NCBI RefSeq assembly: GCF_000703045.1
Contig: NZ_JNLJ01000001.1
Span: 434,001 to 498,000 of the forward strand
Direction of reading: 5' to 3'
DNA: 64,000 bases
Origin: Persephonella sp. IF05-L8
Lineage (GTDB): Bacteria; Aquificota; Aquificia; Aquificales; Hydrogenothermaceae
Position numbers and translations under genes: made by a program. The notes under the pieces are model-generated. The model was not told where the DNA came from. It worked only from the letters and a program-made list of their open reading frames with translations, and ran no database searches. Shown in pieces: positions 9,158 through 12,899 of this stretch; position 1 is the first letter of the stretch, and every line of letters begins with the position of its first letter.

Positions 9158-9637
9158 ATGGAAAAGGTAAGACTACTCAAAAAGCTGATTGATGCAGTGA
9201 TGGAAGGGGATTATGACGAGGTTTATAGACTTGTTGAACTAATAAAGGTAGATTTAAATCAGATTTATGAATATGAAGGAAGCCCTTTACATGTTGCTGT
9301 TAAAGAAGGAGATATAGAATTAGTCAAATATTTCTTAGATAACGGAGCAGACCCTAATATAAAAGGAGCTTTTGGAGAAACACCTCTGCATATTGCTGTT
9401 GATAGAGGATATCTTGATATAGTTAAACTGCTTCTTGAAAAAGAAGCAGACCCAAACGTCCAGAGTAATGAAGGAAATACACCTCTCCATCTATCAGTTA
9501 TAGCAAGCTCCGCAGATATAGCCTATGAGCTTATATCCCATGGTGCCAATAAGGAAATAAAAAATAAATTTGGAAAAACACCCTTAGATTTAGCAATGGA
9601 ACTCAATGATGAGAAGATGATTAAGATTTTATCCTAA
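9158..9637 (+). CDS. Ankyrin-repeat protein
   Basis: The 159-residue protein carries four to five ankyrin repeats with clear consensus pieces: GSPLHVAVKEGDIELVKYFLDNGADPN (about residues 45-72), GETPLHIAVDRGYLDIVKLLLEKEADPN (about 78-105), GNTPLHLSVIAS...ELISHGANKE and GKTPLDLAMELND. There is no signal peptide, so it is probably a cytoplasmic protein-binding module with an unknown partner. A strong AAGGAGGG site precedes the ATG. The queE gene starts 8 bases after its stop, so it opens the queE/QueC-like/channel operon. Confidence 0.9.
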   Translation: MEKVRLLKKLIDAVMEGDYDEVYRLVELIKVDLNQIYEYEGSPLHVAVKEGDIELVKYFLDNGADPNIKGAFGETPLHIAVDRGYLDIVKLLLEKEADPNVQSNEGNTPLHLSVIASSADIAYELISHGANKEIKNKFGKTPLDLAMELNDEKMIKILS

Positions 9638-9645
9638 AGGGTTAA

Positions 9646-10275
9646 ATGCAAAAAATAAGAGTAGTAGAGATATTTTCTTCCATAGAAGGTGAAGGCAGGC
9701 TAATAGGATATCCAGTTTCTTTTATCAGGCTGGAAGGATGCAATCTCAGATGTTCCTGGTGTGATACCCCTTATTCCTATGATACAGAGAACTATAAACT
9801 GATGTCTATTGAAGAAATACTAACTGCAATAAAAGATTTTTCCAATAAAAAAGTATGTATAACAGGGGGAGAACCTCTTTTTAATGAAAAATTTGATATT
9901 TTACTGGAAACTTTACTTAAAGAAGGATATTACATAATAATTGAAACAAACGGAACTATTTACAGAAATATTATAGGAAGTCTCTTTCCTTCTTACAAAA
10001 ATGTTCTTTATATAGTTTGCTCACCGAAGCCAGCAAGTAATTATATGGTTCATGAAAATTTAAAACCTTTTGTTTCTGAAATAAAGCTTGTGGTTGACAA
10101 TAATCTGACTGAAAATATTGTGGCTGCATTTAAAGATTTTCCTATCACTCTACAACCAGAAGGAAACAAGCAAGAATATTTTATAAAAGCACTAAATATA
10201 CAAAAATCTCTTGTCAAAAGAAACATAGAAGTCAGAGTAATTCCCCAGATACATAAGATTTTTAATATTGATTAA
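9646..10275 (+). CDS. queE: 7-carboxy-7-deazaguanine synthase
   Basis: The 209-residue radical SAM enzyme makes 7-carboxy-7-deazaguanine from 6-carboxytetrahydropterin in the preQ0/queuosine pathway. It shows IFSSIEGEG (about 9-17), the cluster motif CNLRCSWCDTPYSYD (C32, C36, C39) and ITGGEPLF. Length fits short QueE proteins. It sits between an ankyrin gene and a second QueC-like gene, while the canonical queC lies far away at 25169-25849. The stop falls 13 bases before the next ATG. Confidence 0.92.
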   Translation: MQKIRVVEIFSSIEGEGRLIGYPVSFIRLEGCNLRCSWCDTPYSYDTENYKLMSIEEILTAIKDFSNKKVCITGGEPLFNEKFDILLETLLKEGYYIIIETNGTIYRNIIGSLFPSYKNVLYIVCSPKPASNYMVHENLKPFVSEIKLVVDNNLTENIVAAFKDFPITLQPEGNKQEYFIKALNIQKSLVKRNIEVRVIPQIHKIFNID

Positions 10276-10288
10276 CAGGTGTACAGCA

Positions 10289-10909
10289 ATGAAAGGAATG
10301 TTATTTAGTGGAGGAACTGAAAGCACACTTTTGATGAACAAATTGCTCCAGGAAAACAATGATATTTTTGCTATATATATAAGATTTGGATTTGAGTGGG
10401 AAGAAGCAGAATTAAATCACGCCTCAAAAATCATTGAGTATTACAAAAAGTATCACACTGATAGAAGTATAAAGTTTCAGGTAATTGATGCCAGAAATGT
10501 TGTTCCTGTCAGAAGTTTGGGAAAAGTTAAATCAATTAAAGACAATATTATCCCTTTGAGAAATCTAAATCTGATAACTATAGCAACTAATGTTTTGGTG
10601 TATCACAATATTTATACTCTTTCCCTGGGTGCTGTTTATATCCCAGGATATCCAGATTTATCTGAAGAATACTTTAAACTTTTAGAAGAAGTTATAAATA
10701 AAGGGTTATTGGAAAATAAATTTAAAATAGAGCTTCCATTTTTTTATCTTTCTAAGGATGAAATATTAAAAAAATATTCCTCAGGAGCACCTATAGACCT
10801 GATATTTTCCTGTGCAAACCCTGTAAATGGTAAAATGTGTGGTGAATGTTATAAATGTGTATCCCTAAAAGAAGCAAAGAAAAAAGTTAATATATATGAA
10901 AAAAAATAG
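10289..10909 (+). CDS. Divergent QueC-like PP-loop protein (second copy)
   Basis: The 206-residue protein has an altered PP-loop FSGGTEST (SGGMDS in QueC), NIIPLRNLNLITIA (matching the QueC TVPMRNLNFLAIA segment) and a C-terminal zinc-site pattern SCANP...CGECYKC. These mark the QueC/ExsB superfamily, which activates a carboxylate with ATP; QueC itself turns 7-carboxy-7-deazaguanine and ammonia into preQ0. A clear canonical queC exists elsewhere in the window, so this copy may act on another substrate or product, or have lost activity. The ATG at 10289 is preferred since it begins at the PP-loop strand; an in-frame start overlapping queE is the alternative. It overlaps the channel gene by 14 bases. 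Confidence 0.72.
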   Translation: MKGMLFSGGTESTLLMNKLLQENNDIFAIYIRFGFEWEEAELNHASKIIEYYKKYHTDRSIKFQVIDARNVVPVRSLGKVKSIKDNIIPLRNLNLITIATNVLVYHNIYTLSLGAVYIPGYPDLSEEYFKLLEEVINKGLLENKFKIELPFFYLSKDEILKKYSSGAPIDLIFSCANPVNGKMCGECYKCVSLKEAKKKVNIYEKK

Positions 10910-12899
10910 ATTTAAACTTTTTGGATTGATTGCTATTTTTTTAGGAGGAATATTTTTAGCAGGGTCTATCTTATTCTTCAAAAAAAGTAATAAACCCATA
11001 ATTTTACTTGTGGAAGATTTATCAAGTTCTAAAGATAAAGATTTTCAGATAACAAGAAAAGCCTATAAAGATTTAGAAAGTTTCCTGAGCCAAAAGTTCC
11101 CTGATTTTAGATTTAAACATATTCCCATATATAAAGAAGATAAAAAAAATATAAGACCTTTAAAAAATTTCCTTGAAAAGAATAAAGATAAAATCGTCTT
11201 AATCGTAGCCAATAACAGTTCAAGTTCACATAAGCTTTACTACAAATATATCCCAGACAATATTCCTGTTATAACCACAATAGGCTCTGTAGGTCTTATA
11301 GAAAACTCTCCTTTTCCTTTGTTTTCTATATACGAAACAAGTTATTCCCGAGCATTAATTCTTCTGAAATTAATAAATTCAGAAAATCCAGATATTACCG
11401 TTTTCCTTTATGAAAACCCAGATACATATACCAAAGAAGTCTGGAATTTTATACAAAAAGGAATACCTGAAAGCAAAGTAAAATCTATAAACTGGAAAAA
11501 TATATCAAACCTTTACCCCCAGATAGAAAACAAGAAAATTATTTTTGTAATAGGAGAAAGCTCAACCCAGACACAACTGGAGCTTTTTAAAAAATTAACT
11601 TCAAAGTATAAAAGCAACCACTACAGCATCATTTTTATACGAAGTTTTTCCAGCTCAATAAATGCTGAAAATAAAATATATTCTGTTATGAATACTATAC
11701 CATCAGCATTTCTGGATATACCGGATAGAGAGATTAAAAGAAATACCCTTTTATTTTGTAAAAAGAAGCAAAAAAGACTTTCTTACAATGAGTGTCTGAA
11801 TGTCTATTCTTATAATTTTGACCTTGGATACGAACAAACATTGGTTTCTTTAAGAGATGTAAATGTTGAAGAAAAGTCCATTGCAGATATTCGCAAAAAT
11901 ATATTTAAAAATCTAAAAAGAACCAATATAGAAAACCCTTATTACAATATTTTTGTGTTTGGTTTTAAAAAAATTTCCCCGTTCTCAAAAAATGGATATA
12001 TAAATCAGATGCTTAATACTGGTATTTATCCACGGTTTGTGGCAAGGTTAGACAAAAAAGTGGTAAGACTTTCCGATTATCAATTTATATCAGGGGAAAT
12101 TCCGGTTGTTTATCTATCAATGGATATAAAAAAGATATACATAGAAGATATTTCTGCTTCTTCAGCCTATGTAGAAGGATATATAAGTATAATTTCTGTT
12201 ATTGATATCTTTCCTGAAGAAGACTTCAAGATAGATTACATAAACCAGGAAAAAGGTAAAATAAATATCTCCCTTATTAAAGATGATGGCAAGATTAAAA
12301 TTTATAAATTTGATGGACACTTTAAAATAAATAGTAAAGGAGAATTATATAACTTTCCCTTTGATACCCATATATTAGAAATTAAAATTTCACCTGCAAA
12401 TTTTTTTGAGAAACCTTTTTATATTCAACCATTTTTCAAAACAGATATTGATAAGGTATCTATAAATAGCGTATGGAGTATAATTGAAGCCGCCCCTTCT
12501 TTTTCCCTTAATTATGCAAATGTTGAATACCTATCCCGTATATTTAATTCAGAAAGAGATTTTAATTCAGTAAGCGTTATTCCAACCGTTTCCTTTGCTT
12601 TCGTTCTTGAGAGAAAAGGAGGAGCAGATATTCTAATAAAGTATGTTCTTCCTTCTTTAATATTATTTATTATTGCTTTGCTGTCCTCATTTTTAATCTT
12701 TAACAGGAATATAGATGCAAAAGTAGATATCCTCGTTAACATGATTATAGCTATTATATCCATATATTTTATATTCAGTTTGCTTATCAGCATTGATGAA
12801 CTAATATACATTGATTACCTTTATCTTATTTTTATAGGAACCACTTCTTTGTTTTTACTGGTTTCTATAGTTTTTTATAGACGACATTCCAGAGAATAA
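10896..12899 (+). CDS. Periplasmic-binding domain fused to a pentameric ligand-gated ion channel (Pro-loop receptor)
   Basis: The 667-residue protein starts with an uncleaved-looking signal/anchor (about 8-28). Residues 34-380 resemble a type 1 periplasmic-binding fold (IILLVEDLSS..., VLIVANNSSSS..., IPVITTIGS). Residues about 385-575 look like the beta-sandwich of Cys-loop/Pro-loop receptors: YLSMDIKKIYIEDISASSAYVEGYI, then the Pro-loop NFPFDTHILEIKI (486-497), then VSFAFVLERK leading into the membrane. Hydrophobic helices match M1 (about 579-602, KYVLPSLILF), M2 (608-631) and M3 (637-660, starting YIDYLY). The protein ends seven residues later, so no M4 helix is visible. The likely role is a ligand-gated ion channel sensing a solute in the periplasm. 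This is inference from motif pattern, not a database hit. Confidence 0.72.
   Translation: MKKNRFKLFGLIAIFLGGIFLAGSILFFKKSNKPIILLVEDLSSSKDKDFQITRKAYKDLESFLSQKFPDFRFKHIPIYKEDKKNIRPLKNFLEKNKDKIVLIVANNSSSSHKLYYKYIPDNIPVITTIGSVGLIENSPFPLFSIYETSYSRALILLKLINSENPDITVFLYENPDTYTKEVWNFIQKGIPESKVKSINWKNISNLYPQIENKKIIFVIGESSTQTQLELFKKLTSKYKSNHYSIIFIRSFSSSINAENKIYSVMNTIPSAFLDIPDREIKRNTLLFCKKKQKRLSYNECLNVYSYNFDLGYEQTLVSLRDVNVEEKSIADIRKNIFKNLKRTNIENPYYNIFVFGFKKISPFSKNGYINQMLNTGIYPRFVARLDKKVVRLSDYQFISGEIPVVYLSMDIKKIYIEDISASSAYVEGYISIISVIDIFPEEDFKIDYINQEKGKINISLIKDDGKIKIYKFDGHFKINSKGELYNFPFDTHILEIKISPANFFEKPFYIQPFFKTDIDKVSINSVWSIIEAAPSFSLNYANVEYLSRIFNSERDFNSVSVIPTVSFAFVLERKGGADILIKYVLPSLILFIIALLSSFLIFNRNIDAKVDILVNMIIAIISIYFIFSLLISIDELIYIDYLYLIFIGTTSLFLLVSIVFYRRHSRE

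Follow-up and report, generated by a model that had tools for sequence, protein, structure and literature searches.

A three-helix protein of Persephonella remotely related to pentameric ligand-gated ion channels

Results

The window, a 64,000-nucleotide stretch of DNA from Persephonella (Aquificota), a thermophile of vents, contains at positions 10896-12899 of the + strand an intact open reading frame (ORF) that begins with ATG, has zero internal stops and encodes a protein of 667 amino acids. The initial annotation described this protein as a type 1 periplasmic-binding (PBP-I) region joined to the sandwich and helices M1-M3 of a pentameric ligand-gated ion channel (pLGIC), with the fourth helix missing. 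Its landmarks NFPFD (residues 486-490), KYVLPSLILF (from residue 582) and YIDYLY (638-643) were all found at the residues indicated. Hydropathy analysis revealed four hydrophobic helices, one N-terminal (residues ~8-31) and three C-terminal.

From the N-terminus, all on the + strand, the features are as follows. A hydrophobic helix (residues 8-31; 10917-10988), modelled as a helix at residues 3-27 by AF2 and also present in the relative L003 (see below), is a putative signal anchor or an unusually long signal peptide. It is followed by an alpha/beta domain (residues 33-395; 10992-12080) of alternating strands and helices, best modelled at residues 35-129 and possibly PBP-I-like, an assignment that is unproven. 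A pLGIC-like extracellular beta-sandwich (residues 402-578; 12099-12629) was delineated with hhalign, both from this part alone and in the full alignment; compared to GLIC, it is shorter between beta2 and the Pro-loop. The Pro-loop motif FPFD (residues 487-490; 12354-12365), which is FPFN in L003, aligns to YPFD of GLIC. The sequence LER (residues 571-573) precedes M1 (residues 581-602; 12636-12701), assigned by hydropathy and alignment, and the M1 proline P586 is kept in L003. The candidate pore helix M2 (residues 607-630; 12714-12785) carries D-2', D2', N6', I9', S13' and F16' when placed in register with GLIC M2 by hhalign. M3 (residues 639-661; 12810-12878) is followed by the basic tail YRRHSRE and the stop codon, ~7 residues past the end of the last predicted helix, with no M4. 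The M1-M2 loop is basic as well, and these charges are consistent with the topology.

To define the distribution of the protein, 136 Aquificota genomes were searched. It was present in only 4, all Persephonella: two assemblies of the window species, G006 and G001. Its occurrence is thus patchy within the genus (4 of 14 genomes). A second assembly of the window species contains a near-identical gene on a MAG contig (L002; 5 base differences over 2004). The relative in G006 (L003) has 714 amino acids, shares 30% identity with the window protein and resides at a different locus, whereas that in G001 (L004) is a C-terminal fragment of 58 residues, located where its contig ends. Note that the full-length sequences compared are two, the window protein and L003. 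No classical pLGIC was detected above the cut-off in the 136 genomes; sub-threshold matches were short and weak, several of them broken by stops. The viral contigs searched contained no relatives.

Neither the window protein nor L003 matched the Pfam families Neur_chan_LBD or Neur_chan_memb, a search proposed in the initial annotation, whether they were used entire or divided into parts, and NCBIfam and PDB sequence searches returned no significant match. A Legionella pLGIC used as positive control was recognised where the window protein was not. In profile-profile comparison with hhalign, the query was an alignment of the window protein with L003, restricted to their C-terminal parts. The pLGIC profile contained 4 sequences, 2 of them partial: GLIC (full length, identical to PDB 8i41 residue for residue), stretches of ELIC and sTeLIC, and the Legionella protein. 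The alignment scored 50.9, with a probability of 90.4 (local) or 95.4 (global), and was colinear over 231-260 columns, with no rearrangement between beta1 and M3. In contrast, the best of 200 shuffles, in which sandwich and membrane composition were kept apart, reached 24.7, and the reversed control 15.5. The sandwich part alone was significant (32.5, versus a maximum of 24.0 in 200 shuffles), while the membrane part alone was marginal (19.0, versus 18.7 for the best shuffle). Compared on its own, the window protein scored 34.2 over 160 columns, ranking first among 297 ORFs of its own genome (runner-up 26.8). The best of a further 504 ORFs scored 28.2 over 50 columns, below the window protein. 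This background of ~800 ORFs covers ~1.25 Mb of a genome of 1.83 Mb. L003 alone scored 30.0 at the same place. Leaving out one template at a time gave scores of 34.6-50.3, and single templates mostly failed (GLIC alone 15.7, ELIC alone 15.8). Known pLGICs scored 145-174 in the same test, compared to 51 for the window protein.

Structure prediction with AF2 from the single sequence, without an alignment, produced a poor model (pLDDT 42.6, pTM 0.30) that does not confirm the fold. Foldseek matches of the poor models of the whole protein and of the N-terminal domain, such as KaiC and TIM, were discarded as meaningless.

Given that no significant family or PDB sequence match was obtained and that the membrane part alone is marginal, the protein might be unrelated to pLGICs, a periplasmic alpha/beta domain, a beta-sandwich and three helices having come to resemble a channel by convergence or chance. 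We consider this distinctly unlikely, because the combined profile score is about twice the best of 200 shuffles, the window protein comes first of ~800 ORFs and L003 scores independently at the same place. Moreover, the Pro-loop, LER, M1 proline, M2 pattern and helix spacing occur in the correct order, the distance from the M1 proline to the M3 aspartate being 53 residues versus 51 in ELIC. Note that the canonical WxP motif of loop A is absent from residues 430-470, where the sandwich is shortened. As judged by profile-profile alignment with null controls, which supports the proposed Pro-loop-receptor-like sandwich and M1-M3, the relationship to pLGICs is real but very remote. This shows that some relatives of pLGICs escape the family models now in use.

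We next consider the C-terminus. L003 and L004 both end with FRLK, shortly past M3 like the window protein, and the gap from the stop codon to the next gene is 47 bases in the window and 23 bases at L003, where the next gene is the antisense purQ. A sequencing error or truncation was ruled out by the agreement of the second assembly of the same species and the two other species, and a frame-shifted or downstream M4 by the short distances to the next gene. A four-helix domain with a C-terminal M4 is found in neither the window species, L003 nor L004. Since the relatives end at the same point and there is no room downstream, M4 is absent by design. The absence of M4 is genuine across three species. 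Thus, the reported stop seven residues after M3 is a property common to independent relatives; homologues with an M4, which would have pointed to a truncated copy, were not what the search returned. A literature search, with most subscription journals outside its coverage, returned no natural pLGIC without M4 and none in Persephonella, and the three-helix state appears to be new within the literature searched.

Glycine receptor subunits lacking TM4 are reported to yield functional channels only when the absent portion is provided, TM4 being needed for pentamer formation, and laboratory-made two-part glycine receptors work in vitro (PMC6110938). By analogy, the Persephonella channel might be split, with M4 provided by a separate small gene. 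However, the neighbours at the two loci are QueC, rhodanese, a thioredoxin-like gene and purQ, with no small membrane-protein gene beside the channel at either, rendering a split channel, for which the initial annotation had suggested looking, very improbable.

Among segments of similar or greater length, conservation between the window protein and L003 is highest in M2, with 65% identity over residues 609-631, compared to 35% in M1, 24% in M3, 31% in the sandwich, 27% in the N-terminal domain and 35% in the N-terminal helix. M2 of L003 carries D-1', D2', G6', L9', S13' and F16' (hhalign register). Both proteins have polar pore-facing positions in M2 and hydrophobic gates at 9' and 16'. Such conservation would be expected of a pore helix, whereas a mere anchor is unlikely to be the most constrained part of a protein. 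In pLGICs, an acidic inner pore mouth goes along with cation selectivity. The GLIC-like acidic inner mouth (D-2' and D2' in the window protein, D-1' and D2' in the relative) suggests, by analogy, that the putative channel may be cation selective.

These features of M2 also bear on whether the protein conducts at all. A non-conducting pLGIC descendant could serve as a membrane-anchored solute receptor, its three helices signalling to or assembling with another protein. The loss of M4, required in glycine receptors for pentamer formation, would be consistent with such a role, as would the fast sequence divergence and sporadic occurrence (4 of 14 genomes of the genus). However, M2 is the most conserved segment and has a pore-like polar/hydrophobic pattern that an anchor would not need, and no partner gene is common to the two loci. 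A non-conducting receptor is therefore unlikely in our view.

The N-terminal helix was overlooked in the initial annotation. In both full-length members it comprises a hydrophobic stretch of ~21-24 residues with basic residues on the cytoplasmic side, and, if uncleaved, it would bring the number of membrane helices back to four. This helix might replace M4, a special case of the channel model favoured below: the stretch exceeds the usual signal peptide and would run from in to out, the same direction as M4. On the other hand, a cleavable signal peptide is possible (AGS and VFS before hydrophobic residues), the alpha/beta domain of the window protein begins only a few residues past the helix, which would place it beside the channel and near the membrane, and the helix sequence is weakly conserved (35%). 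We regard replacement of M4, with four membrane helices per subunit, as rather improbable. The same holds for a pLGIC lineage with a rearranged membrane domain, in which an N-terminal signal anchor would stand in for M4, the C-terminus would be cytoplasmic and the sensor would be tethered at both ends; we view this as doubtful.

In the single-sequence AF2 model, residues 35-129 of the N-terminal domain show alternating beta and alpha elements with moderate confidence, the rest being poor. The order of the motifs IVLIVANNSSSS, IPVITTIG and ITVFLYENPDTYT is PBP-I-like by eye. Among the weak Foldseek matches of this poor model are glucose- and ribose-binding proteins and GluD N-terminal domains, outranked by TIM barrels. 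Pfam and NCBIfam searches gave no match for the N-terminal domain. Profile comparison to Peripla_BP_6 and ABC_sub_bind proteins of Aquificota gave scores within the shuffle range, and thus failed to establish PBP-I identity. The type 1 periplasmic-binding region proposed for residues ~34-380 is consequently backed by neither the profile nor the structure test. An alpha/beta sensor domain is plausible based on the alternating beta/alpha structure and the motif order, and its identity as PBP-I is plausible and unproven.

The start of the channel gene overlaps the end of a QueC-like gene by 14 bases (window 10896-10909), which suggests that the two are co-translated, in the window species only. 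The channel gene and its relatives are not syntenic, with different loci in the window species and in G006, where the channel gene is flanked by a thioredoxin-like gene and purQ. The run of genes ankyrin-QueE-rhodanese-YbeY is unbroken in G006 and G001, and neither QueC nor the channel is part of it. Compared to the window genes, identity is 95-98% for ankyrin and YbeY and 79% for QueE in both genomes, and for rhodanese 96% in G006 and 79% in G001. Because the channel of the relatives is located elsewhere, its deazaguanine context is confined to the window species. The suggested link to deazaguanine enzymes thus amounts to a species-specific gene order, absent where the relatives occur. The strong divergence of the channel (30% identity) beside near-identical flanks suggests that its gene may have been acquired by transfer or replacement rather than by vertical descent.

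The QueE-QueC-channel segment (window 9646-10909; L090, L091) looks like a variable spot between the near-identical ankyrin and YbeY flanks. The ankyrin-repeat protein (window 9158-9637) keeps its synteny with rhodanese and YbeY across most genomes of Persephonella.

Discussion

Of the fusion originally proposed, the pLGIC-like sandwich, M1-M3 and the absence of M4 were upheld by our analysis, while the PBP-I assignment and the deazaguanine link were not. From the sequence comparisons, the protein is probably a subunit of a homopentameric, pLGIC-descended channel that has genuinely lost the C-terminal M4 and carries a predicted solute-sensing periplasmic domain. Within this model, pentamer formation, gating and selectivity are inferred, as are the identity of the N-terminal domain and its role.

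The periplasmic N-terminal alpha/beta domain would sense a small solute, thereby altering the packing of the pLGIC-type beta-sandwich. This repacking would shift the M2-M3 linker and open the pore lined by M2, for which the aspartates at -2' and 2' (in the relative, at -1' and 2') predict selectivity for cations. In contrast to classical pLGICs, the C-terminus would lie in the cytoplasm. The place facing the lipid that M4 normally takes would be either vacant and filled by lipid, or occupied by the N-terminal helix. Since glycine receptor subunits lacking TM4 form no functional channels, some compensation for the loss of M4 would be needed here; it may be provided by tight packing of M1-M3, by lipid, or by an uncleaved N-terminal helix running in the direction of M4.

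Sandwich, Pro-loop, M1 proline, M2 pattern and M3 follow each other as in GLIC (Gloeobacter), ELIC (Dickeya/Erwinia) and sTeLIC, and the acidic inner pore mouth resembles that of GLIC (E-2'). In contrast, these channels lack the extra N-terminal domain, have M4 in full, and score 145-174 among themselves versus 51 here. DeCLIC (Desulfofustis) has the usual four helices. Like the window protein, DeCLIC possesses an additional domain at the N-terminus, a proposed modulator of the channel, but its N-terminal lobes are beta-sheet and calcium-binding, whereas the N-terminal domain of the window protein looks alpha/beta (PMC12664993, PMC9897478). As the initial annotation noted, extra N-terminal domains are known in prokaryotic channels. 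Such sensor domains on bacterial pLGICs, PBP-I included, have been on record since 2004: Tasneem et al. described PBP-I-fused pLGICs (ART-LGICs) in Magnetospirillum and Bradyrhizobium, and their account gives the prokaryotic proteins they found, PBP-I fusions among them, a signal peptide and, at the C-terminus, a 4-TM domain (PMC549065). Compared by description, ART-LGICs likewise place a putative N-terminal solute-binding domain before the pLGIC sandwich and channel helices; however, they are described as 4-TM proteins and are found by sequence profiles, while the window protein lacks M4, has much weaker similarity, and its PBP-I identity is unproven. Subunits ending after M3 are also known from glycine receptor alpha1 lacking TM4 (oscillator mouse, human R316X; PMC6110938). 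In those cases a four-helix protein has lost its function by mutation, whereas the three Persephonella species carry the shortened form as a fixed state.

An ordinary four-helix pLGIC on a Legionella adelaidensis plasmid (L010:2779-3726) is annotated as a hypothetical protein. It was the sole plasmid-borne match in a PLSDB search with the pLGIC queries used.

M4 counts as part of what defines a pLGIC. The three helices would be the new element, N-terminal sensor domains on bacterial pLGICs being already known. If true, a natural family without a C-terminal M4 would offer a tool to test the role of M4 in assembly, lipid sensing and gating, and the protein, coming from a thermophile, may be stable enough for structural work.
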